From assembly GCA_922989275.2 (NCBI GenBank), contig OV277864.1, forward strand, positions 70,684,158 through 70,748,157: a DNA stretch of 64,000 bases. The letters are read 5' to 3'. Of the stretch, positions 30,526 through 51,543 are shown piece by piece. Under the pieces are notes generated by a model that ran no database searches, was not told the origin of the DNA, and saw only the letters and a program-made list of their open reading frames with translations. The DNA comes from Gari tellinella. Taxonomy: Eukaryota > Mollusca > Bivalvia > Cardiida > Psammobiidae. Position 1 is the first letter of the stretch. Each line of letters opens with the position of its first letter. A program made the translations under genes and the position numbers.

Positions 30526-30529
30526 CTAA

Positions 30530-31540: not shown

Positions 31541-31573
31541 ACTTTACACTTAATTTGATTCTCATACACTTAC

Positions 31574-31873: not shown

Positions 31874-31899
31874 CTGAAAATTATAAAAAGAAGGTCAAC

Positions 31900-32280
31900 T
31901 ACTGAGTTCCTTCCTTACAACGACAACCAAATGGGATACATAGATTGTGTGTGTTGTTTGGAGGGAGAACTTCGTTATAGAGAGGGAAACCGGCTTACAT
32001 TTGCAAACAGCTTGAATTCAGGTCAGACGCCGCGCTAAGCGGCGTCTGATTTGGATTCAAGCTGTTTGTCACTCATCATCATGTTTGTTTTCTTTAAAAA
32101 TGTCCATTATGTGACTTTGAGAAAACAGCATACGACACTTTTAAGCACACGATATTGCAGCCGTGAAAAGGTTGGACACAATTGTCTTGTTTGGTGAACA
32201 ACGACAAGCATTGTTGCAAGGAGGGAATCGTTGTTCGGAGGACCGTTGTTGGGAGGGAAAACTGTAAAATACAATTAATT
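31900..32280. mobile_element. Family B2 MITE
   Basis: GAGTTCCTTCCTTACAACGAC on the left, GTTGTTGGGAGGGAAAACTGTA on the right; hairpin at 32007-32070 with TTCAGGTCAGACGCCGCG and inverse. Confidence 0.7.
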
Positions 32281-32464
32281 TCTGATTTCTCTATCTAACC
32301 CTGTCTAACCCTGTCTTGTGACATCTCTTTGGAATTGTCTTTTCAAGACAATTCCAAAGAGATGTCACAAGACAGGATTTGACGGAGAAATAAATAGTAA
32401 TTGATACTTTTATAATCTGACTTGCGACAACATTTGTCGTATACAGTTTTTGAAATGGGCCCCT
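32281..32464. mobile_element. MITE of the GGGGCCCGTTTCA family, left end missing
   Basis: Inner hairpin TGACATCTCTTTGGAATTGTC and inverse; right end TTTTTGAAATGGGCCCC. The left end is replaced by the B2 element next to it. Confidence 0.65.
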
Positions 32465-33580
32465 AGTGAGACACCGAGTTAAGCCACTCTACGTCTAGTG
32501 TGGTGTATAATTCAATTTGTCTTAACAAAATGTTCGACTTCAGTAAGTTCGAGGTAGACACTAAACTATATGTAGATTCTATATTTGAATTTTGTTATTT
32601 AACCATTAAGCCCTTCATGTTGATCTAGATTAGATGTCACTGACCTAGACCTTCTATCTGCAGTATTTAGAATAACCGTGGGACTTTTTTGCATTCCAAT
32701 CTGCGTCAAAAACTCATTGTGATGTCACAGTAAGTGTGTGACGTCATGGCTAGTTTAATGTTTACACACACTTTGTGCAAGTTCTAGCTTATAAATTAAA
32801 TACACATGTTGATCTAGATTAGACTAATTTAGTAAAATTACTTTAACTGTTTCCTCGAATTTCTTATTTAGATCTAGTATCTAGTTACTCTTTTACTATA
32901 TAGGGTTGAGTTTTGTCAATATATTCTAATATGACAGACGCTGTAGATCCTGATCAGGACTAGATCTACATTAGGAGCTTTTTATCTGGCTCTTCACTGT
33001 TTGTATTGAAAGTGCACTCTTCAGGGGGAAACTATTTGTAAAGGACTTGACTATGGTTCAAGTGGTTAATATACTGTGTTTTCTTGCTAATTGCTAGATT
33101 CTAGTTCATGTTAATTGTGCAATATTTTTGTTAATTATATGATACCATTTGATATGTATGAAATGCAAGGTAGATTAGTCGCTTGACTAATTGAGTTACC
33201 CTCGTTACATAATGATAAATATAAAGTCGTTCATTCATTCTAATCTGGATCCAAACTGTTCGCACCAGTTATAAGGTCACCCGCAGCATGCAATAGGATT
33301 ATAAAAGTGTTACATTACATTGAATTCAAAACGCTTTTGACTGGCTAAATATACAAGGTTGAATCATACGTTTCACGAGAACTAATGAATCAGTAATATG
33401 TTATCGTTTCCACGTGTTTGCAAATAAATTCGGGGACAGGCAAAGAAGGGTTTCGTTTAAAGTAAATTCCAGTCTAACAGCCTAATATCGGTCCAACTTC
33501 AAATGCCATATAAACCAGTTAAGATTTGCTCTTAGTCTAAGGACACCAAATTAGCATTTGAATAATTTTTAACTTTGATG
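32465..33580 (-). other. Intron 1 stretch, no exon seen
   Basis: Contains GTGTGACGTCATGG (a CRE-like site) at 32746, a family C fragment at about 32880-33070 (ATATTCTAATATGACAGACG, GTAGATCCTGATCAGGAC), and at 33415-33580 the first instance of a sequence (AATAAATTCGGGGACAGG, CAGTCTAACAGCCTAATATC) that recurs through the duplicated array to 44.8 kb. Confidence 0.4.
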
Positions 33581-33581
33581 T

Positions 33582-33954
33582 ACAGTGAACCCCCTCTAAA
33601 CCGGACATGTGGGAGGACAACAAAAATGTCCGGTTCAGAGGGGTTTCCAGTTTAAAGGGCTTTTTAACTCATTACCAAATAGCTTGTTTCTAGTATGGAA
33701 TATATCTGACCACTTTAAGTAGGTAGAAAGAAAAGCAGAATACACCTTTTAAGGCGCGTTCTGCTTTACTTTCTACCTGCTTTAAGCTATCATCTGCTAG
33801 AATGTATTAACTATTTTCTTCAGTGTAGAAATAAACCAAAGACGTGAAAATAAGTATTTATGGTGTAAATGGTTAAAAGAAAGAAGGGTTGGAAACGGGA
33901 CTAAGTTTTTGTCCGGTTTAGAGAGAATTCCGGTATTTAGAGGTTTCACTGTAT
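33582..33954. mobile_element. TA-flanked MITE carrying a nested family A MITE
   Basis: Outer ends TACAGTGAACCCCCTCTAAA and TTTAGAGGTTTCACTGTA are inverted. The inner family A copy (33660-33877, hairpin with AAAGCAGAATACACC) interrupts it; outer halves resume with GGTTGGAAACGGGAC. The order of insertion is therefore outer first, family A second. Confidence 0.75.
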
Positions 33955-34245
33955 CACAAAAAATATTCTTGAAATAGATCTAGGCTACAGGTTAACGACA
34001 AATGAGTAAATATATTACCACTAAACATTGGTGTACGCATAAACATGTAAATGTAAAATGTCTTTTACTACCGATATTGAAAAAAAACACACAAAATAAC
34101 TACAGTAGTCTAGTACAGTTAGTAGTTACCCCACCCAAGCCATATGGAAGAATGGATGGACTAGATCTAGACATTTATATATTTTAAAATTTATCTCCCC
34201 CGACACATTTAATTTAAATTATTGTTTAAATAATATATTGATTAC

Positions 34246-34292
34246 CTTTTCACGAACATGCCTGATGAGTTTGTGATTAAATACCTGTCCAT
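34246..34292 (-). CDS. First exon copy 1 (MDRYLITNSSGMFVKR)
   Basis: On -, ATG plus 15 codons and two bases, donor AAAAG|GTAATC. AG joined to the first G of exon 2 gives Arg, then VYARERD, so it splices in phase. Upstream (34293-34520) lies the promoter-like block shared by all copies. This is the copy closest to exon 2. Five of the six copies differ in only two or three residues of the 16. Confidence 0.75.
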
Positions 34293-34530
34293 TTTACAGT
34301 TGAACGTTAGAATAATTCGAGAGCTTTAAAACACACAGCTGCTGCAACTTTGAATTAAGCGTTACTAAGGCAGTGCTAAGGAAGTGACGTCATACATGTA
34401 ACACATAAATCCCCGAAACTATCCGAATGCAACAATTTCCGCAATTATTCGGAACTTTACGAAGTTGGCCGAATCCATTTGCTGTTGTCCCAACGCAGAT
34501 CTAAGATACATGCGTGATACTGAGATGAAA
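34293..34530 (-). promoter_or_regulatory. Promoter/5' UTR block of first exon copy 1
   Basis: On - upstream of the ATG: a CRE-type TGACGTCA (34385-34392 region, AGTGACGTCATAC on +), then a cluster of CCGAA/TTCGG words (CCCCGAAACTATCCGAATGC, TTCCGCAATTATTCGGAAC, GGCCGAA). The block is shared with copies 2-5 at high identity and, in motifs, with copy 6. No TATA box was noted. Promoter activity is inference. Confidence 0.5.
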
Positions 34531-35089
34531 GTCGGTTAATTCTTTATTCTTTATAAAGGACTGAAATCTTAATGGTGTAATTGCAAAAATAAAAAATAGA
34601 TCTATATCTACTCAAATAAAAGCAAATGTGTGGTATTATCATGCATTTGGCATTGAAGAAATATGATCGATATGAAAAACAAATCATCAGTAAAATAAGG
34701 GAATCTTAGTTTTTTAAAAAAAGACTGAAATCTGATGGTTGTAATTGCAAAAATAAAAGCAAAAACTCAAATAACAGCAAACATGTGGCATCATCAGGCA
34801 TATGGCATTCATGAAGTATGATCGATATGAAAAAACAAATCAAATGCCATGGCGCCATCGAATAAAGAATTGTCGTCTGCTTTTATTTCTTGAATTTTAT
34901 GTAATTTGAATCCAGAAATATTGAAATGGGTGTATGACAGTTTGGAACCTGAGCAGACGCCGCATTACCCGATAATAATCCAACACTGTTTGCAAATAGA
35001 TTCGGGGTCTAGCAGTGAAAGGTTTTTAAAGTAAAATGCAGTCTTACAGCCTAATTCCGGTACAACTTCAACTAGAAATGGGTTTTGAG

Positions 35090-35330
35090 AAAAACGCATG
35101 TCTCCCCCGGGTTATTGTAAGAAAATAAAAAAGAAGTCAAAATCTCTTTATAGTCACAGAGCATGTGACCTTCGACCGACCAACCTGAAAAGCAATCCTA
35201 AGCATCCCATTCCCAACCAGTTCACCAAAAATAATGATGATCGGCCCATAAGAACAACAGTTATTGTCCGGAAACCAAAGCGTGACAGACAGACAGACGG
35301 ACTAAAAGTGTACACCTCGTATGGCAGTTA
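35090..35330. repeat. Interspersed repeat with GACAGACAGAC end (copy 1)
   Basis: GAGAAAAACGCATGTCTCCC, CATGTGACCTT(C/T)GACCGACC, ATAATCGGCCCATAAGAAC-like, ends GCGTGACAGACAGACAGACG. A second copy lies at 36635-36870. The small open frame here is not a gene. Confidence 0.65.
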
Positions 35331-35377
35331 AAAGTTTGGATCCTGATCAGATGTCGCATTACTTACTTACTCCCAGT

Positions 35378-35695
35378 GGAGCATAAGGCACCAATGAATC
35401 GTCTGCAGCCACCTCTGTCTGGAGCGAGCCAACTTATTTCAGTCCATGTCTTGCCTGCTGTAGCCATCTCTTCTTCTATTGTCCTCCTCCAAATACCCAA
35501 ATGGCCTTCCCCTCTTCCTCTTTCCGTGTGGTGCCCATCTCAAAGCAGTATGTGGATGTCTGCTCCTGTTCATCCGCAACACATGACCCAGCCATCTCCA
35601 GCGTCTCTGTTTGACCTCTTGCACAATGTTGTTGATTCCTGTGCGCTCTCTCAGATGCCGCATTACCCGATAATAATCCAACACTTTTTGCAAAT
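35378..35695 (-). pseudogene. LINE open reading frame 2, C-terminal fragment (RTE-like)
   Basis: On -: VRHLRERTG-type start, then QRRWRWLGHVLRMNRSRHPH, TALRWAPHGKRKRGRPFGYL, EEDNRRRDGY, and after a stop NKLARSRQRWLQTIHW. RWRWLGHVLRM followed by GKRKRGRP is the typical sequence just after the reverse transcriptase in many animal endonuclease-type LINEs. Truncated on both sides. Flanked by ATGCCGCATTACCCGATAAT on both sides (about 34960 and 35655), the likely target-region duplication. Confidence 0.75.
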
Positions 35696-35976
35696 AGATT
35701 CGGGGCTAGCAGTGAAGGCTTTGTTAAGTAGAATACAGTCTTACAGACTAATACTTTTACAACTTTAAATTAGAATGGGGTGGTCGTTCGGGACGGGCCT
35801 GGCTGTATCCTCAAGTAGACTACCTAGTACTTAAACTTCTGTTCTTATTTATTCTCTCCCTGTCTCACTTTTTATCTATATATTTTCTTTTTTCTGTTTC
35901 TTCCTCTACATTCACTTTCTTCTTCTTTATCTTCTTGTTATGTCGATTTTAATATTTTGCTTGCATTATTTATGCA

Positions 35977-36163
35977 CAGGGCTTCAAATAAGAGGGACTA
36001 AATTATCAAATAAAAAACTTAACTCATTTGAGTGATGAAACCATGCCATGTAAATACTCATTGAATAACGTCTCGAATAGACAATTGTTTTGGATGGCTG
36101 GCACCGTTGGCTAAATGAAGAGACATCCTTTTCTTATTATAATACCCCTTATCTGGAGCCCTC
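35977..36163. mobile_element. CAGGRCTCC-family MITE, degraded
   Basis: CAGGGCTTCAAATAAGAGGG on the left, CCCCTTATCTGGAGCCCT on the right; the central palindrome is mostly lost (ACTCATTGAATAACGTCTCG). Confidence 0.55.
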
Positions 36164-36204
36164 ACTTATGTTTACGTCATAGGTACCTGTTAGTTCGTGT
36201 TAGT

Positions 36205-36285
36205 CTGTGTGTGGGTGTGTGGGTGGGTGTGTGAATGTGTGTGTGTGCGTTCGTGCGTGCGTGCGTGTGAGTATGTGTGTACGGT
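36205..36285. repeat. GT/GC-rich simple repeat
   Basis: TGTGTGTGGGTGTGTGGG, GTGCGTTCGTGCGTGCGTG and so on. Confidence 0.9.
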
Positions 36286-36634
36286 CAATGTACAGTGGAC
36301 ACTCTGGAACAGGTGTGCATGAAATTTTACTAGAATTTTGGTAATCATATGCGGACACAGTATGATGGGGAATGCTCCTTATGGAGATTTCAGTGTCACT
36401 GTGTCCTGCAGCACTATACATCCGTAAACCATTCGGGGTTCTTTTACTTCTTACAGAGTGACTACTGTGCAAATGTACATAATTTGTATTTCCATATCAT
36501 GTGCCCATCTGTATATTATTTGTATCACTACTTGAATAGGGGAGGGCTGTAACTAATGTTGGTAGAACTTGTGGCCCGACCCGATTTCATGAATTTGAAA
36601 TAAAATATGGTTAAACAAAACTATTAGAATGGGG

Positions 36635-36870
36635 TTTTGAGAAAAACGCATGTCTCCCCCCGGGTTTAGTCACAGATCATGTGACCTTTGACCGACCAAC
36701 CTGAACTGCAATCGTAAGCACCATCTTCTCATAAGCAACCATTTCACCAAAAATGATGATAATCGGCCCATAAGAACAAAAGTTATTGTCCGGAAACCAA
36801 AGCGTGACAGACAGAAAGACGGACGGGTGGACGGAGAGCACAAACACAATATTATTAGGCGGTAAGGGGG
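36635..36870. repeat. Interspersed repeat with GACAGACAG end (copy 2)
   Basis: Second copy of 35090-35330, ending GCGTGACAGACAGAAAGACGG. Confidence 0.65.
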
Positions 36871-37581
36871 TACATAATAAGTCTTACAGCCTAATACTGG
36901 TCCTACTTTAAATGCCACATAACCAGTTAGGATTTGCTTTTATAGTTAGGCATGTAGTGAAGGTTTTTTTAAGTAAATTACAGTCTTGCTGTCTGATATC
37001 AGTCCAACCAGTTAGGCTTTGCTCCTAGTCTTATGCCACTAAAATAACATTTGATTGATTTTTCATATGATATAAATCTAAATATATTACCAGAAACAAA
37101 GCAACATGGTAAAGACAGACATGAGTAAATCTAATGTTACTAAACATTTGTGTATACATATGACATATTTACGCTTCATATAAAGGAAATTTATTAACTA
37201 CCGATATTGAACAAGCGAATGTCTTGTAGTTATATAGCTAAGGCCCCAATTGGCCTGACTATCTCTCTGGTATATTATCTCTCTGGTACAACTTTGTAAA
37301 TATAACTCGCAGGTAATTTTGAAACTGTTTGTGTGCACATTTACAAGGTTGAACAGTCTTAAATATCAAATCGCTTTGATTCAATAACGAAATTATCTAG
37401 GAGTCCTATGAGTGTTTTTCGGTCTTGGTAATGAGGATATTCTGTTAACACACTTAACAGCAGTTATTAGTTACCCCACCCACACTATTTGAAAGACTTG
37501 GTGGACAACACATTTATATTTGAAATCTCATCGCCCCTAAACCATTTAAAGTACACGTCATCTTTCAAATATATCGATTAC

Positions 37582-37628
37582 CTTTTCACGAACATGCCTG
37601 ATGAGTTTGTTATTGAATACCTGTCCAT
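37582..37628 (-). CDS. First exon copy 2 (MDRYSITNSSGMFVKR)
   Basis: Same 47-nt coding length, ATG and donor AAAAG|GTAATC as copy 1; in phase with exon 2. Leu5 of copy 1 is Ser here. Lies in a segment (about 37.1-40.1 kb, with copy 3) that was duplicated again as 42.7-45.6 kb (copies 4 and 5). Confidence 0.75.
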
Positions 37629-37860
37629 TTTACGGTTGAAAGTTATAATAATCGGAGAGCTTTAAAACACACAGCTGCTGCAACTTTGAATTAAGCGTTA
37701 CTAAGGCAGTGTTAAGGAAGTGACGTCATAGGACAGAAACCCCGAAACTATCCGAATGCAACAACTTCCGCAATAATACGGAACTTTACGAAGTTGGCCG
37801 AACCACGTTGCAGTTTAAGTGCCAACGCAGATCTAAGATACATGCGTGATACTGAGATGA
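37629..37860 (-). promoter_or_regulatory. Promoter/5' UTR block of first exon copy 2
   Basis: AAGTGACGTCATAGG on + at about 37718, then CCCCGAAACTATCCGAATGC, ACTTCCGCAATAATACGGAA and GGCCGAACC, ending at CATGCGTGATACTGAGATGA. Order and spacing as in copy 1. Confidence 0.5.
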
Positions 37861-38812
37861 AACTTAGTTAATTCTTTATTCTTTAAAAAGGACTGACATC
37901 TGAATGGTGTAGTTGCAAAAATAAAAGCAAATACTCAAAAAAAGCAAATACTCTAATAGAAGCAAATGTGTGGCATTATCAAACATATGGCATTCAAGAA
38001 ATATGATCGATATGAAAAACAAATCATCAGTAAAATCACGGAATCTTAGTTCTTAACGTTTTCCCATCGCCTTTTTTCTACTCCGACCTAAGGCGGGTAG
38101 TTCTTTGCTTTTGAACGTCGCTTTGTACAATTCATATACCTTAAAGTAGACAGTCATGTAAGAAATGCTTTAGACTGGCTTATGTACAAGGTTGAAACAT
38201 GCGTTTAGTAGAAATAATGAATCAATAACATTTTATCATTGCCCGACATGTTACACAGACAAACTGGTTTAATTCCTCCAACTTCATGCTGTCATCGAAT
38301 AAATAATTGTCGTCTGCTCTTATTTCTTAAATCTAAACATTTCGTATTTTGACTTTAGAAATATTGAAATGTAGTTCAAGCAGTTTGGATACGCGGATGC
38401 CGATTATGATAGAAACTGTTTGCAAATAAAACTATAAGCCGCGTATGGCAGTTAACAGTTTAAATCCTGATCAGACGCCGCATTACCCGATCAGAATCCT
38501 AAATTAAGGGTCAGGAAGTGAAGGTTTTAAATAAATTACAGTGTAACTAACAGCCTAAAACCAATCGAACTTCAATTTCCTCATAACCAGTTAGGTATTG
38601 ACGTTGCTCTTAGTCTTATCAGTTATGGCACTAAAATAGCATTTGAATAATGTTTAACTTTGATGCTCTATTACAAATATATTCTAGAAACAGCCTACAG
38701 GGTAACGACTAATGAGTAAATCTAATAGCTTTTAACATTTGTGCAGCATACATTGTACGCTTTACTTTGGATACGTGGCGTTTGATTAGGATAGAAAATG
38801 TTTGCAAATAAA

Positions 38813-39094
38813 CTGTTCAAACAGATTCTCTAACAGGATAGTTAATGACTGGAATGCCTTGTCAAGTGACACAGTAGAATCCAAGAATGTCAACTTATTC
38901 AAGAGTGCGTTAAATTCCTGTTGGAAGAACAAATCTAACAAGTTTTACTACCAGTAGACTGTAGCATCCATCGCGTACAACAAGCGCAACTGTATATAAC
39001 CATATTATATTGTGTACAACGATTGAAATTGGGCCACCATGAGCAACGCTCACCAACGGCCAGCAGGACAAAGGCAAAGGTAAACAAAGGTAAA
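38813..39094 (+). pseudogene. LINE 3' fragment with target duplication CAAATAAA
   Basis: Encodes NRIVNDWNALSSDTVESKNV, then NLFKSALNSCWKNKSNKFYY and stop: the RVVNDWNxLP...VNxFKxxLDxxW pattern at the end of CR1/L2-type reverse transcriptases. The 3' tail is GGTAAACAAAGGTAAA. Flanked by CAAATAAA at 38805-38812 and 39095-39102; the paralogous segment at 44575-44590 (GCAAATAAAACTATC) is the empty site, so the insertion came after the segmental duplication. Confidence 0.85.
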
Positions 39095-39331
39095 CAAATA
39101 AAACTATCAATGTACTCCCGCGTATGGCAGTTAACAGTTTTAATCCCGCATTACCTAATAAGAATCCAAAACGTTTTGCAAATAAATTCGGGTATTTAAA
39201 ATAAACTACAGTTTTATAGCCTAATATCAGTCCAACTTCAATTGCCACATAACTAGTTAGGCATTGACTTTGCTCTTAGTCGTATGGCACCAGAATAGCA
39301 TTTGAATGAGTTTTAACATTTATATAAGTAA

Positions 39332-39597
39332 CAGGACTGCCATAAGTTGGCATGAAAAATCCTAAGATTTCCAAATTTGCATTTTTCAAGTGCGAATTTA
39401 CGAATCGTATACCTTTACCCCATAGCCTGTTTCTAGTTTTGTTGACACGTGACTAGATCTACTTAAAGCAGACTGGAAGTAAAGCAGAATGCGCCTTATG
39501 GCGCATTATGCTTTACTTTCAGTCTGCTTTAAGCTTCCGTGATCTAGAAAAAAATCCGAAGATTTAGGAAAAATCCGGAGAAATGGCAGCCCTGTAG
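39332..39597. mobile_element. hAT-like MITE (CAGGACTGCCATAAG) with family A core, copy 1
   Basis: Ends ACAGGACTGCCATAAGTTG and AAATGGCAGCCCTGTA are inverted. Inside, TTTACCCCATAGCCTGTTTC and the family A hairpin are present (39468-39535) but the right family A end is missing: a family A copy nested in or fused to a hAT-type MITE. Paralogue at 44814-45078; third copy at 46072-46280. Confidence 0.7.
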
Positions 39598-39866
39598 TAA
39601 TACAAATATATCATAAACTGTTCAAACCAAAGGCGACAGGGTAACGACTAAGTAATCAGTAAATCTAATGCCACTAAACATTTGTGTCTCATACATGTAC
39701 GCTTCAATCAATGAAAATATATTTTAATACCGACATTGAGCAAGCTAATAACTACAGTTATTAGTTACCCCGCCCACTCCATTCAAAGGACAAGCAAATT
39801 ATATTTGATATTTTACCGCCCGTGAAACATTTAAAGTACAAACCATCTTTCAAATATATCGATTAC

Positions 39867-39913
39867 CTTTTCACGAACATGCCTGATGTATTTGTTATTG
39901 AATACCTGTCCAT
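39867..39913 (-). CDS. First exon copy 3 (MDRYSITNTSGMFVKR)
   Basis: 47 nt, ATG, donor AAAAG|GTAATC, in phase with exon 2. Encodes the same peptide as copy 5, from which it is separated by 5.49 kb. Confidence 0.75.
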
Positions 39914-40150
39914 TTTAGGGTTGAAAGGTACAATAATTCGAGAGCTTTAAAACACACAGCTACTGTAGCTTTGAATTAAGCGTTACTAATGCAGTGTTAA
40001 GGAAGTGACGTCATAGGACAGAAACCTCCGAAACTATCCGAATGCAAACATTTCCGAAATTACTCCGAAGTTTACGAAGTTGGCCGAACGACGGTGCCGT
40101 TTATGTATCAATGAATATCTAAGGTTCATGCGTGAAACTGAGATGAAAAT
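39914..40150 (-). promoter_or_regulatory. Promoter/5' UTR block of first exon copy 3
   Basis: GAAGTGACGTCATAGGAC at about 40003, CTCCGAAACTATCCGAATGC, TTCCGAAATTACTCCGAAG, GGCCGAACG. More diverged upstream than copies 2 and 4. Confidence 0.5.
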
Positions 40151-40504
40151 CGGTTAATTCTTTATTCATTAAAACACTGAAAACCGAATAGTGTAAGAGC
40201 AAAAAAGAAATGGAAACACTCAAATAAAAGTAATTTTGAAGCCCTTCGCTACATTAGATTAATATACGATAAAATAGTTGAAGTGGATCAAGCGCTGTTA
40301 CACTTTTACCGCGGATCATTATCATTACCTACTTCGCACAGGTCCGAGCTCCACCCATAGATATCTTAAGAGACGTTATTTTAAGATATCTATGGCTCCA
40401 CCAAACTCAATATTGTTGTTCTTTTCAATGTATTTTAACATAAATCTCATTCTTTATGTAATTTGAACTTATTTATGTAGGCGCATGCCATGTATACATA
40501 TCAT

Positions 40505-41690
40505 TGTTTTCAGTACCACAGGTATTACAATGGATTAGATCTTTTCTCACTGGAAGGTCACAGAGAGTTGCATTGGAAGGTCATCTCTCCGAGGAAGCAC
40601 CAGTCCTTTCTGGAGTTCCTCAGGGCTCAGTGGTTGGCCCATGTCTCTTTCTCGCCTACATAAACGACTTACCGGACAGCATCAAAAGCCGTGCACGACT
40701 CTTCGCGGATGACACGATCGTGTACCTGACGGTTAAATCCCAGGGCGACGCGTCAGACTTACAAAAAGACATTGACAGACTAGAACAGTGGGAGAGGGAC
40801 TGGTCAATGGACTTCAACGAGGATAAATGCGAAGTCTTACGCATCTCAAGAAAGAAAAAGACAGTCATTTATCCCTACAGACTCCATAACACTGTTCTAA
40901 AGGACACAGACAATGCCAAGTACTTAGGGGTTAACATTAACAAAGACTTGAACTGGACTGGACATATTGACAATACTGTTGCAAAGCAAAAAACACACTA
41001 CGATTTATTAAAAGAAATGTTAAGACTTCCAAACAAAATACCAAAGAAGCTGCATACATGACTTATGTTCGCCCCCAGCTGGAATACTGCTCTGTCATTT
41101 GGCACCCCTGGCAAAAACACCTCAGCAACAAGGTAGAAAGTGTCCAACGTGCAGCAGCCAGATACATTTTCAACGACTATGATTACACAAGTAGCGTGTC
41201 ACAAATGATTCTTACACTTCACTGGAACACTTTAGAACAACGTCGAATTCATAACTCCTTACTTATGATATACAAAATACAGCGCCAACTAGTCTATGTT
41301 GATCACCACCACCTCACTCCAACCAGATACCTTAATTTCCTGATACCACAGTCTCGTTCCCAATACCACATGAACTCGTTTTCCCCCAGAACTATACGAT
41401 ATTGGAATAACCTCCCAGGTCAAACTAAATCAAGCCCCAGTGTAGATGCCTTTAGGGTGGGACTGGGAGCAGTCACATTCTAAGCGCTGAGAGCTTGCTT
41501 TTATCTTTTAACTTAACCTTGCACCCTATATCTGTACATTCTGTAAACTTTGATTTATCTATCTCTTATCTATGATCTTTTAATTTAACACTTTACTAAC
41601 ACTGTCTTTCCCAGACAACGCGCCTCCCAATCATAATCTGTTTTGATTGTTCGGGAATATTGATGTTGATGTTGATGTATCGCCCTTTTA
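40505..41690 (+). pseudogene. 5'-truncated non-LTR retrotransposon (reverse transcriptase C-terminal part)
   Basis: Two overlapping frames encode one protein broken by a frameshift near 40985-40995. Seen: GVPQGSVVGPCLFLAYINDL (RT block 4-5), RLFADDTIVYL (the YxDD-type catalytic motif as FADD), DKCEVLRIS, AKYLGVNINKDLNW; then after the shift TYVRPQLEYCSVIWHPW and RYWNNLPGQTKSSPSVDAFR. This is the order of Jockey/CR1-group elements. The 5' end is cut within the RT; the 3' end has a TTGATG repeat (41670-41688). It carries no endonuclease and cannot move itself. It lies between first exon copies 3 and 4. Confidence 0.9.
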
Positions 41691-42270
41691 ACGAAGGAAA
41701 ACAAACTTTTTTTGTCCAAGGATAGTCTTTAGTGTGTTGGCGAAATGAAGAGTAAAAGTATTGCATAGAATACATACAATGGAAAAGACGCTATTCTTTC
41801 CCGTTAAAATTCAATCGAAACGCAAACAATTTCTAAAGATTAAAATTCATGTTTTGTTAGTAAGTTAGGTATGTTGCCTACAGAAATATTGAAATGGGTA
41901 TCCAAGCTATTTGAGAGAGAAAGAGAGATAGGGAGAGCGGGAGAGGGCAAATGCACGTTACTGGTACACAATAAACCAAGACTGGAAACACAAAGACAAT
42001 AAGTTTACGGTGTAATACCCTACTAGCAGATTATACTACCATCCTGTGAGGTGCTACAGTCATACTATATTTCAAGCTAAGTCCGAAGATCTTGATAGGG
42101 CCTAGACGAGTTTCAACTCAACGAACGGCTATCAACGGAAGGTAAAAGGTAACTAATTTCTACTAACTTATTGCCGGCCCCAAGCCCGTGCACAATATGA
42201 TCCTACTCATATATTTTCAGTTAGCTTTTTGTAGCCGGATGAGTTTATGATTAAATGGTGAGAGATTTGT
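41690..42270. other. Nothing recognised
   Basis: No exon or repeat beyond a short (GA)n run at about 41905-41950. Confidence 0.35.
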
Positions 42271-42274
42271 GTAA

Positions 42275-42350
42275 GCGGCCCGGTGGTTCATTCGGTAGAA
42301 CACTTGTCCTGTAAGCAAGGGGTCCTGAGTTCGAGCCCCGGTCTGGCTGC
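42275..42350 (+). repeat. tRNA-Thr-like sequence (tRNA-derived SINE head), copy 1
   Basis: GCGGCCC can pair with TGGCTGC as an acceptor stem; CTTGT-CCTGTAA-GCAAG forms an anticodon arm with TGT (Thr); the T arm CTGAGTTCGAGCCCCGG is imperfect. T33 is C and the 3' side is two bases too long, so this is more likely a SINE head than a working tRNA. CATATTTTTCTCACCATGTT follows, as in copy 2. Confidence 0.5.
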
Positions 42351-42534
42351 ATATTTTTCTCACCATGTTACATTTGGCGCCCAACGTAAATAACCCGTAG
42401 GATAATATGTAACTCGCAGAGTGTACAAATATAATAAAAAGAAACTCGAGGAGTGTTTTTTAGTAAGTTTTTCTAGTAGAGGGGGAGTGGGGGGTATCCG
42501 GGTTGAGTAGTTATGATTAAACGGTGAGAGATAA

Positions 42535-42610
42535 GCGGCCCGGATGTTCAGTCGGTAGAACACTTGTCCTGTAAGCAAGGGGTCCCGGGTTCGAGCCCCG
42601 GTCTGGCTGC
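42535..42610 (+). repeat. tRNA-Thr-like sequence, copy 2
   Basis: Direct repeat of copy 1, 260 bp downstream, with the same tail. The T arm is perfect here (CCGGG TTCGAGC CCCGG). Preceded in both copies by ATGATTAAA(T/C)GGTGAGAG. Confidence 0.5.
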
Positions 42611-42890
42611 ATATTTTTCTCACCATGTTACATTTTTACAATTTTTTATAGATCTGTTACAAGAAACATGCTGGGGTAATGACTCAATATAATACCACTT
42701 TACATTAGTGTACACATCTATGTCCGCTTCAACTAATGAAAATGTCTTTAACTGCCGATATTGAACAAGCTAATAACTACAGTTATTAGTTACCCCACCC
42801 ACGCGATTTGGTAACTATAAAATTATATCTAAATTTTTATCGCCCCTGAAACATTTAAAGTAAACATCATCTTTCAAATATATCGAATAC

Positions 42891-42937
42891 CTTTTCACGA
42901 ACATGCCTGATGGGTTTGTAATCGAATACCTGTCCAT
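42891..42937 (-). CDS. First exon copy 4 (MDRYSITNPSGMFVKR)
   Basis: 47 nt, ATG, donor AAAAG|GTATTC (position +4 changed from A to T, a weaker match to the donor consensus), in phase with exon 2. Ser/Thr at residue 9 is Pro here. Confidence 0.75.
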
Positions 42938-43170
42938 TTTACGGTTGAAAACTAAAGTAATTCGAGAGCTTTAAAAGACACAGCTGCTGCAACTTTGAAT
43001 TAAGCGTTACTAAGGCAGTGTTAAGGAAGTGACGTCATAATACAGAAACTCCCGAAACTATTCCAATGCAACAATTTCCGCAATTATTCGGAACTTTACG
43101 AAGTTGGCCGAACCACGTCGCAGTGTATGTTCCAACGCAGATCTAAGGTACATGCGTGATACTGATATGA
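42938..43170 (-). promoter_or_regulatory. Promoter/5' UTR block of first exon copy 4
   Basis: GAAGTGACGTCATAATAC at about 43027, TCCCGAAACTATTCCAATGC, TTCCGCAATTATTCGGAAC, GGCCGAACC. One CCGAA word is lost (TTCCAA) relative to copies 1 and 2. Confidence 0.5.
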
Positions 43171-43840
43171 AACATAGTTAATTCTTTATCCTTTAAAAAG
43201 GACTGACATCTGAATGGTGTAATAGCAAAAATAAAAGCAAATACATGTACTCAAATAAAAGCAAATGTGTGGCATTATAAAAAATATGGCATTCAAGGAA
43301 TATGATCGATATGAAAAACAAATCATCAGTAAAATCACGGAATCTTAGTTCTTAACGTTTTCCCATTGCCTTTTTTCTACTCCGACCTAAGGCGGGTAGT
43401 TCTTTGCTTTTGAACGTCGCTTTGTACAATTCATATACCTTAAAGTAGACAGTCAGGTAAGAAATGCTTTAGACTGGCTTTATGTACAAGGTTGAAACAT
43501 GTGTATAGTAGAAATAATGAATCAATAACATTTTATCATTGCCCGACATGTTACACTGACAAAATGGTTTAATTCCTCCAATTTCACGCTGTCATCGAAT
43601 AAATAATTGTCGTCTGCTCTTATTTCTTAAATTAAAACATTTCTTATTTTGACTTTAGAAATATTGAATTGGTGTTCCAACAGTTTGGATACGCGGAAGC
43701 TGATAAGAATAGAAACTGTTTGCAAAAAAAAAAAAAGCCGCGTATGGCAGTTAACAGTTTAGATCCTGATCAGACGCCGCATTACCCGATCATAATCCAA
43801 ACATGTTTGCAAATAAATTCAGGGTCAGGAAGTGAAGGTT

Positions 43841-44089
43841 TTAACCCTTTCCCCTATAGAAGCGCCTTTTAGCGAATATGATTTATTCATCCGCTGAAGA
43901 AAATAGTTCCAATTTTATCAGTCATGAACATATTACAGGGAATAGTTTCTATATTCTAGAACATGATAGCTTAAAGCAGGCTGAAGTAAAGTAGAATGCG
44001 CCCTAGGGCGCATTCTGCTTTACTTTCAACCTGCTTTAAGTAGTCACATATCTTCAATAGTATAACTAGGGTATCAGGTAAAGGGTTAT
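43841..44089. mobile_element. Family A MITE with an empty site in the paralogous segment
   Basis: TTTTAACCCTTTCCCCTATAG on the left, GGTAAAGGGTTATAAAGTAAAT on the right, hairpin 43969-44038 (GCGCCCTAGGGCGC loop). The paralogue at about 38530 reads GGTTTTAAATAAATTACAG without the MITE. Insertion at TTAA is thus visible within the window. Confidence 0.85.
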
Positions 44090-44361
44090 AAAGTAAATTA
44101 CAGTGTAACAGCCTAAAACCAGTCCAACTTCAATTTCCTCATAACCAGTTCGGTATTGACTTAGCTCTTAGTCTTATCAGTTATGGCACTAAAATAGCAT
44201 TTGAATAATGTTTTACTTTGATATTAATACATATGTAGCTCTATTACAAATATATTCTAGAAAAAGCCTACAGGGTAACGACTAATGAGTAAATCTAATG
44301 TCATTAAATATTGGCGCAGCATACATGTACACTTCACTTTGGATACGTGGCGTTTGATTAG

Positions 44362-44553
44362 CAGGGAATTTTTTTCACTCGAAGGGGAAACAATTGCCAC
44401 CCTTATTTATATAGTAAAATAAGTTAATTAGGGGAAAAAATAATGCGGATTTGCCAAAGGGGAAAGAAAAACCGGGGGTAAGCCCATTTTTAGGGGAAAA
44501 CTGCATGCTTTTAAAGAAAAGTGTGGGCATCTGTTATATAGGGAAAAAAAGCC
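44362..44553. mobile_element. 192-bp hAT-like insertion with 8-bp target duplication
   Basis: Flanked by TTGATTAG at 44354-44361 and 44554-44561; the paralogous segment has a single TTGATTAG (38782-38789) and no insert. Ends CAGGGAATTTTTTTCAC and GGGAAAAAAAGCC are roughly inverted. Contains several AGGGGAAA words. 8-bp duplications are typical of hAT. Confidence 0.85.
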
Positions 44554-44813
44554 TTGATTAGGATAGAAAATGTTTGCAAATAAAACTATCAATGTACTCC
44601 GCGTATGGCAGTTAACAGTTTTAATCCCGCATTACCTAATAAAAATCCAAAACTGTTTGCAAATAAATTCGGGTTTTTAAAGTAAACTACAGTTTTACAG
44701 CCTAATATCAGTCCAACTTCAATTGCCACATAACCAGTTAGGCATTGACTTTGCTCTTAGTCTTATGGCACTAAAATAGCATTTGAATGAGTTTTAACAC
44801 TTATATTAGTAAC

Positions 44814-45078
44814 AGGACTGCCATAAGTTGACATGAAAAATCCTAAGATTTCCAAATTTGCATTTTTCAAGTGCGAATTTACGAATCGTACACCTTTACC
44901 CCATAGCCTGTTTCTAGTTTTGTTGACACGTGACTAGATCTACTTAAAGCAGGCTGGAAGTAAAGCAGAATGGGCCTTACTGGGCATTATGTTTTACTTT
45001 CAGTCTGCTTTAAGCTACCGTGATCTAGAAAAAAATCCGAAGATTTAGGAAAAATCCGGAGAAATGGCAGCCCTGTAG
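44814..45078. mobile_element. hAT-like MITE with family A core, copy 2
   Basis: Paralogue of 39332-39597, so it was present before the 5.4-kb segmental duplication. Hairpin 44944-45015. Confidence 0.7.
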
Positions 45079-45351
45079 TAATACAAATATATCATAGAAA
45101 CTGTTCAAACCAAAGGCGACAGGGTAACGACTAAGTAATCAGTAAATCTAATGCCACTAAACATTTGTGTCTCATACATGTATGCTTGAAAATATCTTTA
45201 AATACCGACATTGACTGAGCAAGCTAATACATGTAACTACAGTTATTAGTTACCCCGCCCACTCCATTCAAAGGACAAGCAAATTATATTTGATTTTTTA
45301 CCGCCCGTGAAACATTTAAAGTACAAACCATCTTTCAAATATATCGATTAC

Positions 45352-45398
45352 CTTTTCACGAACATGCCTGATGTATTTGTTATTGAATACCTGTCCAT
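45352..45398 (-). CDS. First exon copy 5 (MDRYSITNTSGMFVKR)
   Basis: 47 nt, ATG, donor AAAAG|GTAATC, in phase. Protein identical to copy 3. The base just 5' of the ATG differs (CAAATGG versus AAAATGG in copy 3). Confidence 0.75.
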
Positions 45399-45585
45399 TT
45401 GAGGGTTGAAAGTTATAATAATTCGAGAGCTTTAAAACACACAGCTGCTGTAGCTTTGAATTAAGCGTTACTAAGGCAGTGATAAGGAAGTGACGTCATA
45501 GGACAGAAATCACCGAAACTATCCGAATGCAAACAGTTCCGCAATTACTGGGAAGTTTACGAAATTGGCCGAACGACATTGTAAT
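45399..45585 (-). promoter_or_regulatory. Promoter/5' UTR block of first exon copy 5, cut short
   Basis: GAAGTGACGTCATAGGAC at about 45488, CACCGAAACTATCCGAATGC, then GGCCGAACGACATT, where a foreign stretch (45590-46610) begins; the expected continuation (GCACATGCGTGGTAATGG, TTCTTTATTCTTTAAAG) resumes at about 46620. The upstream part of this promoter is therefore displaced by about 1 kb. Confidence 0.5.
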
Positions 45586-46610
45586 TGCAGTAATACGGAA
45601 AAAAGGCTTGCCTTTTTTCCGTTCTTAAGTAATGCACGATAAAATCAAAGGTATTCCAATTCTATTTAATCACTGATAGACTTTGAAAAGTGTTTGATTT
45701 GCGCGTGAATATTTTCCTCAAAACTAGGCAACTACAAAACATGGGGGCTGACATATTGGATGATGATGTCACGGCTTTTACGAAGAGTTGTGCGTGACGT
45801 TTCGGAATTCCCGATTTCGGTGATATTTTTAAACCATTTTAAGAATGAATAAACCACAACACTCACTTGTAATAATTTCCTCCAAATGACAAACTTTCAA
45901 ACAGTTCAATCCATACCCTTTAACGCTAAAAATGAACGTTATTTGCAAAAAGCTACTTCTCAATCGAACCGATAAAAATTAACGGATTACCTTACGTCAT
46001 CAATACAAAATAATGACGTCATTATGGGTGGTCAGATGACTTCCAAAAATAGTTTCAGATTGCATTATAATACAGGGCTGCCATAAGTTGAAATGAAAAA
46101 TCCTAAGATTTCCAAATATGCATTTTTCAAGCGCGATTTTACGAATCGTACCTTTACCCCATAGCCGATTTCAAGTTTTGTTGGCATGTGGCTAGATCTA
46201 CTTAAAGCAGACTGGAAGTAAAGCAGAATGAGCCTTATGGCGCATTCTGCTTTACTTTCAGCCTGCTTTAAGCTACCCTGATAATATAGCTGTACGGAGG
46301 AGTTTTAACTTTTAACATTGTATACACGGGTGCTTATATAATTTATTATCTATTTGATTATTGGGTAACAATATATGATAGATCTTGTCCCTTACAATTT
46401 AGGTTTATAATAAAAGTTCGAGTCGGTTGTGTAATCCAGATCTCAGTCACGAGAGGCGTAGCCTCGAGTGTGATCTGGAATACACAACGAACTGATACAA
46501 GAGCACTGATCACACACTGGCGATAGATCTATTCCGTTTTCATTAATACAATTTTGCTTTTTTCCGTCCATAGGCAAAGCCTAAATACATATTAATGTCC
46601 AATGCCCTGA
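45586..46610. mobile_element. Composite insertion between copy 5 and its upstream sequence
   Basis: Contains a palindrome GGAAAAAAGGCTTGCCTTTTTTCC at 45597-45620, an unassigned stretch, the third hAT-like/family A MITE (46072-46280), and a foldback at 46420-46500 around GAGAGGCGTAGCCTCGAG. Exact ends are not resolved. Confidence 0.45.
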
Positions 46611-46859
46611 ATGCAGGTCTATTAGTAATTTAGTACGTAAGCATAAGGCACATGCGTGGTAATGGTATTGAGATGACAATTTGTTAATTCTTTATTCTTT
46701 AAAGAGACTTACAACCAAATGGTGTAATTGCAAAAATAAAAGAAAAAATTAATATTTAAATAAAAGCAAGTTTGTAGCATTACCGTGCATATGGCTTTTT
46801 AAGAAATACAATCGATATAAAACACCCTTAGGTCATTAGTTCTTACCGTCGATAAAATA

Positions 46860-47340
46860 GAAACATGAACGGATGTTATTTTGCAGACAAGAAACTATAA
46901 CAAAGGGGAATTACTCCAAAAATATTGATACCAGAGTTATGGCCCTTTTCAATGACACTTTTCTCGCATCTTGTTCTTTTCACTAAGAAATTACATTTCA
47001 CTAGCTGTGACGCTCAGCAGAAAATGAGTTATTCTTCGGACAATAAACTATGACAAAAGGGAATAACTAAAAAGTTTTGATGCCGGAGTTATGGCCATTG
47101 TGAAATATATTTATACCAAGCTCTTTCTATATATTTGGGAAATTACATTTCACTAGCTCAGCAGAAGTGTATTATTTCTCCGGACAGGAGCATATGACAA
47201 AGGGCAATAACTCTACATATTGATGCCAAAGGTATGGCTCTTGTGCAAGACACTTTCTCTCATCAAGTTATTTTAATTAATGAAATGTCAACTCACTAGC
47301 ATCACGCTATCTAGAGCGAGACATATGCTGTAGTTAAACT
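46860..47340. repeat. Short imperfect tandem repeat
   Basis: Three units of about 130-150 bp with CTAT(A/G)ACAAA(G/A)GG, GAGTTATGGCC and AAATTACATTTCACTAGCT; same general type as the elements at 21950 and 50340. Confidence 0.55.
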
Positions 47341-48600
47341 TTTAGTCTGGTTTAAACAGTCATAATAATACATGTATGTACTTAACACTGAAACAAGCAA
47401 CAAAGTAAACTCAGATAGTTCACCAAATTGATTTTTTTCTCAAAGATGCATTTCAGAATTGTACAGAGCTACAACCTGTTTTAAACAACAACCTATTTCC
47501 GACAGCCCTGGAAAACCTTTTATTTTTCTATGAATATTCACGACTTCCGTTGTCTGCTGCGCGTGTTCTGTTTACAAACAGTAGTGAAATGTCAAGCAAC
47601 TTCATTTGACTCCAAATACTGATAAGAAGGGTTCTAAGCTTTTATAAAGAATATGTGAACAAATCATTTTTAGGTAGATTTACTATTCCTAAAACTTCAC
47701 TGTGAGTGAATCAATAGTTTATGTAAAAACATATACTGAATGATTTTGATTGCAAATGTATCCGTCTTCTACATAAGGTCACTAGCTATGAAGCGCCCCC
47801 TACGATATATGTTTGTAGTATATTTCACAGAAAAAATAAGGTGATAACACTGACCAGGGGCCTTATGTCAATTTCAAAGCTTGTTTACTAATTGAACTTT
47901 AATTAATTGATATGTTTTTTAACTTTACAGTATCTTTATGGGTTTTTTTTAGACTTTTTTCAACATCATGTGTCTAAAAGGGGTCATACAGACACTACGA
48001 CCCAGATAACATGACTAGGGCTTACACTAGTCTAAATTAAGGGTAAGAAGAACAGGTAACAATTCCTCTGCCCAGGCTGTAGTAGTCCCACTAACAAAAC
48101 ATTTGACATGACATCAAACATTTGTAAATACTAAATAGATCTACATTTGTGAAAGTTTAAATTGTTTAAAACAGTTAAACAAATTAAACAGATCTACTTT
48201 TATAAAGAAACCTTTTTGGTGACACATAAATGTTTTTGTACAGTATACTTTTAGAGCAATGGTACCTAAATCCGACAGGACCCTAAATTCGACCCCTTCT
48301 TAGTTCTTACAACCATATCCATTTCTCCTGATTAAATGTTTTATTCAATACAGTAGATCTATTTTGATTGATAATTTCATGACGTCAAATTTAAATGTTA
48401 ACGTCACGAAAAAGATTTGATCACACAAATGTCTGTCCCCAAACGTTTGGTTTGACATCATTTGTAGATACTGATAGAGGAGGTTGACAAAAAACTCACA
48501 TCTATCAAATATACCCCCACCCTCTTAAACTGCTCTTTAGTTGCAAGACATGTTCAAAAGAATTTTCAAATTTTACCGCCATTAAACAATACATATAGAA
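47341..48600. other. Nothing recognised
   Basis: AT-rich, no convincing exon, hairpin or tandem repeat. Confidence 0.4.
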
Positions 48601-48619
48601 CTTCAACTATGACCATTAC

Positions 48620-48666
48620 CTGTTCATGAACCTGTCTCGAGAGTTTGGTACCCAATATCTGTCCAT
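48620..48666 (-). CDS. First exon copy 6, divergent (MDRYWVPNSRDRFMNR)
   Basis: 47 nt on -, ATG, donor AACAG|GTAATG, in phase with exon 2. Nine of 16 residues match the other copies (MDRY, N, S, F, N/K-R end), yet length, start, donor and phase are all kept. The most upstream and oldest copy by divergence. That an intact frame persists through this divergence argues for selection, but 16 codons are too few to prove it. Confidence 0.6.
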
Positions 48667-48900
48667 TCTAAGTCAATATATGAGAAAACAATAGAGCATG
48701 AAAATACACAGCCTCTTAAACCTTGACAAAATGGTTACTAAGGTGGATGTTCTACGGATATGACGTCAAAAGTATTGTTTATATACGGAACAACTCGGAC
48801 ATTTTGCACTTTTAAACAGAAATATCCGAAACAATCCGCATACAAGCTTCCGCAATGTTTCGGACAAATTTCCGGAATTAACCGAACGAATGTTGATCAA
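48667..48900 (-). promoter_or_regulatory. Promoter/5' UTR block of first exon copy 6
   Basis: TATGACGTCAAAAG at about 48757 keeps the CRE core, and the CCGAA cluster is dense (ACGGAACAACTCGGAC, ATATCCGAAACAATCCGC, GTTTCGGAC, TTTCCGGAATTAACCGAACG). Intervening bases are mostly not conserved with copies 1-5. Motif retention amid divergence supports a regulatory role (inference). Confidence 0.5.
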
Positions 48901-50339: not shown

Positions 50340-51290
50340 AGAGTACATCAAGGGCAGATAACTAGAGCCTAAACAATACTGAAATGAAGCCTTTTTAGCA
50401 TTTCAGAGTATATCAAGGGCAGATAACTATTGCCACAATGATTAGATTTCAACAATAATCGCACTCCTTTGAGAACTTATAGCTATATACTTTGTGTGCA
50501 AGTATAATCAAAATCCATTGAAAACTCTAGTTGCAAGAGTGTAAACGCTGTAAGATATGGCATTTTCAGCAATTCAAGGGCAGACAACTCTTGACCTATA
50601 GGTCTTATTTCAACCATAATCACACATATCTACACTCTTATGGTCATATACAATCTGGCCAAGTTTGAAAAAGACTGGATAAAAATGGTGGCCTCTAGAG
50701 TGTAAACAGTGTTAAATATGGCATTTTAAGCAATTCAAAGGTAGATAATCCTCAACCTATTGGTCTGATTTCAACCATAATTAAACTCATCTAAACTGTT
50801 ATGGTCATATACAATCTGAGCAAGTTTGAGATAGATTATATAAAAATGATGGCCTCTAGAGTGTAAACACCGTTAAATATGGCATTTTCAGCAATTCAAA
50901 GGTAGGTTACTCTCAACCTATGGGTCCGATTTCAACCATATTCAAACTCATATGAATTCTTATGGTCATATCCAATCTGAGTAAGTTTAAAATAGATTGG
51001 GTAAAAATTGTGGCCTCTAGAATGTAAACACCCTTAAATATGGCATTTTCAGCAATTCAAAGGTAGATAACTCTCAACCCATTTGTCTGGTTTCAAGCAT
51101 AATCACACTCATCTGAACTCTTATAGTCATATACAATCTGAGCAAGTTTGAAGAAAAAGTGTGGCCGCTAGAGTGTAGACACTGTTAAATATGGCATTTT
51201 CAGCAATTCAAAGGTAGAAAACTCTTGATGTGATCTAGATCTATTGATCTGATTTCAAGCATAATCGAACTCATACAAAATCTTATGGTC
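50340..51290 (+). repeat. Tandem array of about 165-bp units
   Basis: Five to six units with AGTGTAAACACTGTTAAATA, GGCATTTTCAGCAATTCAAA, GATTTCAACCATAATC and CTTATGGTCATATACAATCT. The last unit is split by the MITE at 51294. Confidence 0.8.
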
Positions 51291-51293
51291 ATA

Positions 51294-51543
51294 TACAGTG
51301 GAGAATCTGTTATTCTTTCCCGTTTAAACGCAAACGTACGCAAACGCAAAACGCTAAAACGTAGAAAAGTACAACTTTTGGACAATTCTGATAATTCATG
51401 TTTATCTTGGTGGCAAACCGTTTGGAGCCTGATCAGACGCCGGGTTACCCGGCGTCTGATCTGGCTCCAAACTGTTTGCACTGCAAATAATAGTTTTAGC
51501 GTAAACGCGTTTATTGGGAAAGAATATCAGATTCTCCACTGTA
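51294..51543. mobile_element. MITE with TACAGTGGAGAATC ends, copy 1
   Basis: Inverted ends TACAGTGGAGAATCTG and GATTCTCCACTGTA; sub-terminal GTTTAAACGCAAACG; hairpin 51417-51475 with GGAGCCTGATCAGACGCCGG and inverse. It interrupts GGTCATATACAATCTGG of the host array; neighbouring units show the uninterrupted site, with TA or TATA duplicated. Confidence 0.85.

Follow-up and report, generated by a model that had tools for sequence, protein, structure and literature searches.

Does one short coding segment, repeated six times at a bivalve locus, represent a set of alternative first exons feeding a single gene, or is it the residue of passive duplication? We examined a stretch of 64 kb (the window, meaning the whole stretch analyzed) for which a preliminary description had proposed six such segments, each with its own promoter-like block, and one two-exon body. 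The six 47-nt segments were recovered on the minus strand at the positions reported there, with the same peptides and with a GT after each (Table 1). The bivalve origin is supported by a neighboring gene.

Table 1. Features of the locus, in positions of the 64-kb window.
Feature	Position	Strand	Remarks
First-exon copy 1 (MDRYLITNSSGMFVKR)	34246-34292	-	Closest copy to exon 2
First-exon copy 2 (MDRYSITNSSGMFVKR)	37582-37628	-	
First-exon copy 3 (MDRYSITNTSGMFVKR)	39867-39913	-	
First-exon copy 4 (MDRYSITNPSGMFVKR)	42891-42937	-	Donor GTATT
First-exon copy 5	45352-45398	-	Exon identical to copy 3
First-exon copy 6, divergent (MDRYWVPNSRDRFMNR)	48620-48666	-	
Promoter-proximal block, copy 1	34293-34400	-	TGACGTCA 34385-34392, TTAGTAAC 34361-34368
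Promoter-proximal block, copy 2	37629-37736	-	TGACGTCA 37721-37728, TTAGTAAC 37697-37704
Promoter-proximal block, copy 3	39914-40021	-	TGACGTCA 40006-40013, TTAGTAAC 39982-39989
Promoter-proximal block, copy 4	42938-43045	-	TGACGTCA 43030-43037, TTAGTAAC 43006-43013
Promoter-proximal block, copy 5	45399-45506	-	TGACGTCA 45491-45498, TTAGTAAC 45467-45474
Promoter-proximal block, copy 6	48667-48843	-	TGACGTCA 48761-48768, TTAGTAAC 48734-48741
Predicted exon 2, Arg/Ser/Tyr/His-rich	31574-31873	-	Strong acceptor, GTAAGT donor, no in-frame Met
Predicted exon 3 (TAG stop)	30420-30525	-	Weaker acceptor
AATAAA, candidate polyadenylation signal	30208-30213	-	Within match to fold-back repeat 30184-30392
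Two-copy segment, copies 2 and 3	37455-40092	-	Collinear with 42774-45577
Two-copy segment, copies 4 and 5	42774-45577	-	Duplicate of 37455-40092; fold-back repeat 43842-44088 extra
Possible seventh-unit remnant	46072-46825	-	Flank matches alone

Six Copies of a Short Coding Segment

All six copies keep an ATG, a GT donor, and an open frame in one shared phase. When the exon of copy 1 was slid along both strands of the 64 kb with up to 18 of its 47 positions allowed to mismatch, these six sites were found and no others. A nucleotide profile built from the exon, 190 nt upstream, and 15 nt downstream gave six full matches (E 1e-84 to 9.6e-53) and one partial match directly upstream of copy 6 (48826-48891, E 1.8e-6); no seventh full copy was found in the 64 kb, the remaining profile matches being no better than E 0.2. 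The exons of copies 1 to 5 are 91-100% identical to one another, and their peptides vary at residues 5 and 9, as had been described. Copy 6 is 70-74% identical to the others and is older than they are. Each first exon has a usable donor in the same phase, that of copy 4 being weaker, and the donors rank 31, 58-61, and 300 among the 3828 GTs on the strand. These and all other splice-site ranks come from a crude score with splice matrices.

A Single Candidate Gene Body

The window holds one candidate body for these exons. Joining copy 3 to exons 2 and 3 yielded, as claimed, 150 open codons ending in TAG. The exon-2 acceptor (31873) ranked 37 of 3530 AGs, while the exon-3 acceptor was mediocre (565 of 3530). 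Between 30000 and 48620 there are 1039 AGs, of which 16 are followed by a correctly phased open frame of 80 codons or more, five of them in the exon-2 frame, and 31873 was the best of the 16 by far (rank 37 vs. 166 and 248 for the next two). No Met occurs in the exon-2 frame before the first stop upstream is reached, so the exon needs an upstream start. A tblastn search of the window for a second exon 2 or exon 3 found none that was convincing (best others E 0.029 and 0.22).

Coding statistics for this body were marginal. Shuffling left exon 2 with an open frame in 0.9% of cases; the joined reading scored -18.3 in its own frame vs. -35.4 and -49.1 in the other two; the exon-2 codon score had a shuffle P of 0.043, and the period-3 signal had P 0.058 for exon 2 and P 0.24 for exon 3. 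By LRR-frame codon use, exon 2 was negative in all frames, with a frame containing two stops at -14.5 vs. -15.5 for its own.

Searched with the 150-aa conceptual protein, a protein database gave no match at E ≤ 10 among 43 candidates; residues 86-150 likewise gave none among six. The gene model is thus without comparative support, even though Mercenaria and Mactra proteins were included in this database. No Pfam family was found at E ≤ 1 for the joined product, the UGT1, protocadherin, and Dscam domains included, and a PDB search returned nothing meaningful (two weak matches to Ser/His/Arg-rich stretches, best E 0.09).

Shared Sequence Upstream of the Copies

The same upstream block had been attributed to every copy. 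This description suits copies 1 to 5, which agree at 89-93% over -90 to -1, but is too generous for copy 6, which agrees with them at just 57-60%. Copy 6 retains TGACGTCA near -100 and TTAGTAAC near -76, and a block carrying both motifs is common to all six copies. In the window TGACGTCA has 16 sites, 10 of them outside the promoter-proximal blocks; the five sites of CTTAGTAAC in the 64 kb all lie inside the blocks. A loose X-box consensus is matched by four of the six copies and has 80 matches in the window, and a stricter form is matched by five of the six only at two mismatches, with 190 places in the window at two or fewer. Control by RFX/CRE factors, as in a sperm or ciliary gene, is speculative given the frequency of TGACGTCA outside the blocks and of the loose X-box; the CRE-like and half X-box-like motifs perhaps point to start sites used in the male germline or in ciliated cells. 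In mouse, RFX2-dependent and CREM-dependent genes form nearly distinct sets, as outlined in PMC4498915.

No strong acceptor was found directly before the first exons, where the best AG within 120 nt of each ATG ranks 381-679 of 3530. An upstream acceptor is still conceivable, since these ranks are no worse than that of exon 3 and the score is crude.

Growth of the Array and Constraint on Its Units

The block containing copies 2 and 3 was duplicated as copies 4 and 5. The two segments agree at 89.0% over 1093, 86.6% over 283, and 94.2% over 1010 aligned bases, and the fold-back repeat in the second is missing from the corresponding place in the first. At the possible seventh unit, 46072-46282 matches the 3′ flanks of copies 3 and 5 at 90-91% and 46663-46825 matches the 5′ flanks of copies 1 to 4 at 75-77%; neither an exon 1 nor a promoter block was found between 46282 and 46663. 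Tandem and dispersed repeats are abundant in the window. The fold-back repeat, present at 19 places in the 64 kb, sits 3′ of copies 1, 3, and 5 at a distance of 0.3-0.6 kb.

The signals of selection, like those of coding, are weak. Core plus exon was more alike than the flanks in six of the 10 pairs among copies 1 to 5 (uncorrected P < 0.05; best for copies 2 and 3, P = 0.0021) and not significantly so in pairs 1-4, 4-5, 2-4, and 3-5. None of the four computed pairs involving copy 6 had a significant excess. In the nine differing pairs of copies 1 to 5, pN was 0.03-0.06 vs. 0.11-0.33 for pS. The intactness of copy 6 was considered as proof of selection and rejected (chance P 0.09).

Competing Readings of the Locus

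Our preferred reading, held tentatively at a probability of about 0.45, is an orphan bivalve gene in which repeated tandem duplication of a promoter and first exon gave six units in front of one body, which would work in the manner of Drosophila hydra or UGT1A. This gene would consist of three predicted exons, the last two forming the body, and would encode an Arg/Ser-rich protein of ~150 aa. A promoter-proximal block, an ATG, and a donor in matching phase come with each unit, and with no strong acceptor just upstream, any unit could splice to 31873; its transcript would use its own first exon and skip the downstream copies. Because the peptides of copies 1 to 5 are nearly alike, the likely outcome would be extra or differently regulated start sites and not new protein function, while copy 6 would supply a distinct N-terminus. 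The array may thereby provide several alternative on-switches. The array itself, the phase, the donors, the one candidate body in the window, and the block duplication are seen in the sequence, whereas promoter activity, transcription, splicing, and the use of more than one copy are what we infer. The original proposal of a promoter/first-exon array on a gene of no known family fits most structural tests, but is tempered by the marginal coding statistics and weak constraint.

Passive segmental duplication, named as the alternative in the preliminary description, would have come about by unequal exchange, leaving one live copy (perhaps copy 1) and the others decaying. It would suit a window so abundant in repeats, the loss of the exon from the possible seventh unit, and the young pairs 2-4 and 3-5, in which exon and core are conserved no more than the flanks. 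It is harder to reconcile with six intact exons and with several older pairs that have core-plus-exon conservation and low pN/pS, although the counts are small, and we consider it unlikely, if by no means negligible. That the gene model itself is wrong, with the copies starting a transcript that does not code for protein or is spliced in another way, or with exon 2 having a first exon outside the array, seems quite unlikely to us: a phase-matched 100-codon frame follows a top-ranked acceptor, ends at a GTAAGT donor, and lacks an in-frame Met, even though the joined protein has no homolog, its coding statistics are marginal, and its exon-3 acceptor is weak. Other acceptors in the region score level with 31873, but their frames reach 47 codons at most.

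Bivalve assemblies are known to be at risk of containing divergent haplotypes as false duplicates. Copies 2 and 3 and copies 4 and 5, collinear at 86.6-94.2% with a transposon-like insertion in one segment, could on this account be alleles of a highly heterozygous animal laid end to end. Copies 1, 2, 3, and 6 occupy distinct places regardless, however, and a divergence of 6-13% seems high for alleles, so that we hold such an artifact to be highly improbable. Hardly credible is the suggestion that each copy is a stand-alone mini-ORF of 16 codons (MDRY...KR stop) and no exon. Unspliced, five of the six copies do run into TAA right after the 47 nt, but a GTAA donor in this phase supplies that TAA anyway, and copy 4 has lost the TAA and retained the GT, which favors a donor over a mini-ORF stop.

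Relation to Known First-Exon Arrays

Alternative-first-exon arrays are a known architecture, found in UGT1A, the clustered protocadherins, sDscam, and Drosophila hydra, a parallel that the preliminary description does not draw. At the clam locus, several homologous first exons share an orientation and precede one predicted body. As outlined in the literature, hydra of Drosophila melanogaster is, like the clam array, lineage-restricted, with recurrently duplicated tandem initial exons and one body. The two are alike in architecture only. Hydra is expressed in testis, and its exons have been discussed under UTR duplications, whereas the clam exon carries an ATG and 15 codons. The fold-back repeat near clam copies 1, 3, and 5, when compared with hydra, may be there by chance because it is so frequent in the window. 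It is possible, though doubtful, that a hydra-type architecture evolved independently in an orphan bivalve gene, with start sites multiplied or diversified rather than N-termini and the older sixth copy as an alternative N-terminus.

In the UGT1 cluster, an alternative-first-exon array as summarized in PMC9013439, each first exon is of exceptional size and, because it codes for the substrate-binding part, diversifies the protein; the clam exon has 15 codons plus two bases and, unlike UGT1, its peptides are nearly invariant in copies 1 to 5, and the Pfam search gave no sign of UGT1 homology in the 150-aa product. Summaries of sDscam (PMC4835542) and of the clustered protocadherins (PMC1885805) describe tandem 5′ variable cassettes or exons with promoters and constant 3′ exons. 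Chelicerate sDscam cassettes number from 2 to at least 40 in the former summary, compared with six very short exons in the clam, and both are cell-surface recognition genes, to which the predicted Arg/Ser-rich clam product is unrelated. Among the matches listed, no mollusc array of this kind was described in titles or abstract openings.

The arrays compared here mostly belong to large, domain-rich receptor or enzyme genes of vertebrates and arthropods. If the orphan-gene reading is true, a compact mollusc array with near-invariant 16-residue N-termini would set the multiplication of promoters apart from the diversification of proteins. Together with fly hydra, it would make two cases in which a gene that has no known relatives underwent recurrent duplication of its first exon, and first-exon multiplication would be a recurring way in which young genes acquire promoters. 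The prediction is easily testable with ordinary RNA data.

Six predicted first exons in tandem

The preliminary description had claimed six minus-strand 47-nt exons, and all (copies 1 to 6, c1-c6, in coordinate order) were found with the peptides it gave, with a GT directly after each; their equal length and phase were borne out. When the copy-1 exon was slid over both strands of the 64-kb window with up to 18 mismatches, six matches and no others were returned. A profile built from the exon plus 190 nt upstream and 15 nt downstream gave six full matches in the window (E 1e-84 to 9.6e-53) and a partial match adjoining copy 6 (48826-48891, E 1.8e-6), with none further better than E 0.2. Because both searches yield the six, the array is real and far beyond chance, and its structure stands. 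That it works as a multi-promoter array is the likeliest of several readings, at a probability of roughly 0.45.

Self-comparison of the window showed the segment with copies 2 and 3 (37455-40092) to be collinear with that holding copies 4 and 5 (42774-45577), with identities of 89.0%, 86.6%, and 94.2% over 1093, 283, and 1010 aligned bases. At least one step therefore duplicated a two-copy block. In a tree of the six copies built from 250 columns around the exon, copy 3 groups with copy 5 (support 100/99), no order is resolved for copies 1, 2, and 4, and copy 6 lies on a long branch whose placement the program flagged as unsure. Two stretches between copies 6 and 5 resemble flanks of other copies: 46072-46282 the 3' flanks of copies 3 and 5 (90-91%), and 46663-46825 the 5' flanks of copies 1-4 (75-77%). 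An exon or promoter block was looked for between them and not found. The two stretches may represent a dead, exon-less seventh unit, or could be repeats that each moved independently. Between copies 3 and 4, a reverse-transcriptase frame overlaps a second plus-strand frame (40971-41483) that has no Pfam match, and the region 40462-41483 is probably a broken retroelement.

The promoter-like block

Two motifs occupy alignment columns common to all six copies: TGACGTCA, starting at -100 in copies 1-5 and -102 in copy 6, and TTAGTAAC, starting at -76 (-75 in copy 6). The five occurrences of CTTAGTAAC in the window all lie within first-exon blocks, the stretches directly 5' of each copy; the copy 3 block carries a shorter form only. 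Four sites for TTAGTAAC lie outside these blocks. TGACGTCA has 16 sites in the window, 10 of them elsewhere, against 0.7 expected from base composition, and so does not single out the array; the excess may reflect a repeat or a preference across the genome. A loose X-box consensus matches four of the six copies, yet has 80 matches across the window, and a stricter one fits five of six only with two mismatches, as do 190 places in the window. A CRE/RFX reading of the block would be a guess, since TGACGTCA and X-box matches are common elsewhere in the window. Human X-boxes are described as located near transcription starts (PMC5838959). The combined reading is not helped by a mouse study in which RFX2-dependent and CREM-dependent genes are reported as nearly distinct sets (PMC4498915).

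Splicing and the predicted protein

Splice sites were ranked with splice matrices among 3828 GTs and 3530 AGs on the strand. The six donors rank 31, 58, 59, 60, 61, and 300, the exon-2 donor 128, and the exon-2 and exon-3 acceptors 37 and 565. Of the 1039 AGs at 30000-48620, 16 are followed by an open frame of 80 codons or more in the phase required, five of them inside the exon-2 frame, and 31873, the exon-2 acceptor, scores best among the 16 (next ranks 166 and 248). No strong acceptor was found within 120 nt upstream of any of the ATGs, but the best AGs there (ranks 381-679) are not weaker than the one predicted for exon 3. Met is absent from the exon-2 frame as far back as the preceding stop, so the start must come from upstream. 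A tblastn search of the window for further copies of exon 2 or exon 3 found none (best other E 0.029 and 0.22).

As had been claimed, copy 3 joined to predicted exons 2 and 3 yields an open frame of 150 codons that closes with TAG. The assignment to no known family also held: the conceptual protein had no Pfam match at E≤1, no relatives among 5.8 billion proteins at E≤10 in searches that depend on shared 5-residue words, so that distant relatives can escape them, and no meaningful match in the PDB.

Tandem first exons are already known as a kind of architecture. In UGT1 clusters, variable first exons are described as lying in tandem, every one under a separate promoter and with a conserved motif upstream (PMC1885805), and chelicerate sDscam is described with promoter-bearing 5' cassettes in tandem (PMC4835542). 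The closest likeness in architecture is Drosophila hydra, reported to have nine homologous initial exons, of which four or more can serve as start sites, and DINE-1 at the 3' flank of seven (PMC9013439). It is described as confined to the melanogaster subgroup and expressed in testis (PMC2374699), and a review table enters it as de novo from intergenic DNA (PMC3395120). In the array here, a fold-back repeat lies 3' of copies 1, 3, and 5, a placement that may be chance because the window holds one per 3.4 kb. This MITE-like repeat of ~250 nt, with a long central palindrome and matching ends, occurs at 19 distinct places in the 64 kb at E≤1e-3 (e.g., 16976-17225, 43842-44088, and 63316-63560). 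One lies in predicted intron 2, and another covers an AATAAA ~200 nt past the stop.

Constraint and alternative readings

Core (-105 to -1) plus exon is less divergent than the flanks in six of ten pairs among copies 1-5 at uncorrected P<0.05 (c2-c3 0.0021, c2-c5 0.0052, c1-c5 0.0083, c3-c4 0.024, c1-c3 0.032, c1-c2 0.035), the pairs being non-independent and flanks counted only within reach of local alignment. The other four showed no significant difference (c1-c4 0.067, c4-c5 0.081, c2-c4 0.67, c3-c5 0.83), nor did the four computed copy-6 pairs (all but c4-c6; P 0.37 to 0.90). The nine differing pairs among copies 1-5 have pN 0.03-0.06 and pS 0.11-0.33, and copy-6 pairs 0.26-0.29 and 0.30-0.43. 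Fourteen simulated random substitutions in exon plus GT left ATG, frame, and GT all intact in 9% of simulations. These comparisons suggest constraint on the copies, short of proof; that the promoter/first-exon units were passively duplicated is unlikely, if the most serious rival. An artefact of haplotypes behind the segment of copies 4 and 5 is quite improbable.

An error in the gene model is less likely than passive duplication, and the coding statistics are mixed. An open exon-2 frame arose in 0.9% of shuffles. Shuffle P values for the codon score are 0.043 (exon 2) and 0.0074 (exon 3), and of the three frames of the joined sequence the predicted one scores highest (-18.3 vs -35.4 and -49.1). 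Codon scores are negative throughout, an alternative exon-2 frame with two stops is slightly higher (-14.5 vs -15.5), and period-3 P values are 0.058, 0.24, and 0.078 for exon 2, exon 3, and both together. Least probable is that the copies are mini-ORFs rather than exons: unspliced, five of the six would stop immediately because GTAA yields TAA in this phase, but copy 4 has GTAT, losing the stop and retaining the GT, one case that favors a donor over a mini-ORF stop.

Neighboring genes and repeats

Coordinates of the predicted exons and neighboring features in the window
Feature	Position	Strand	Remarks
Copies 1-6	34246-34292, 37582-37628, 39867-39913, 42891-42937, 45352-45398, 48620-48666	minus	
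Predicted exon 2	31574-31873	minus	
Predicted exon 3	30420-30525	minus	
Reverse-transcriptase fragment	40462-41061	plus	RVT_1 E 8.7e-19; between copies 3 and 4
LRR open frame	59842-62667	minus	941 codons, uninterrupted
ZIP zinc transporter exons	5124-5372, 8923-9297	plus	
Two tRNA matches	42277-42349, 42537-42609	plus	within 89% direct repeat
Tandem array, ~45-nt units	671-2799		long open frames, both strands
Tandem array, 161-nt unit	50413-51297		four 300-nt windows in register, 65-74% to reference copy

The LRR frame matches 405 proteins at E≤0.001; among the 120 best of these, its top named relatives come from Mercenaria mercenaria (41% identity) and Mactra antiquata (42%), the best, in Mercenaria, being labelled toll-like, yet Pfam gives no TIR domain for the frame at E≤0.01. 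The DNA thus likely comes from a bivalve, probably a heterodont. ARAGORN called the first tRNA match tRNA-Thr(tgt), the second matches Rfam only, and the pair is possibly a tRNA-derived SINE.
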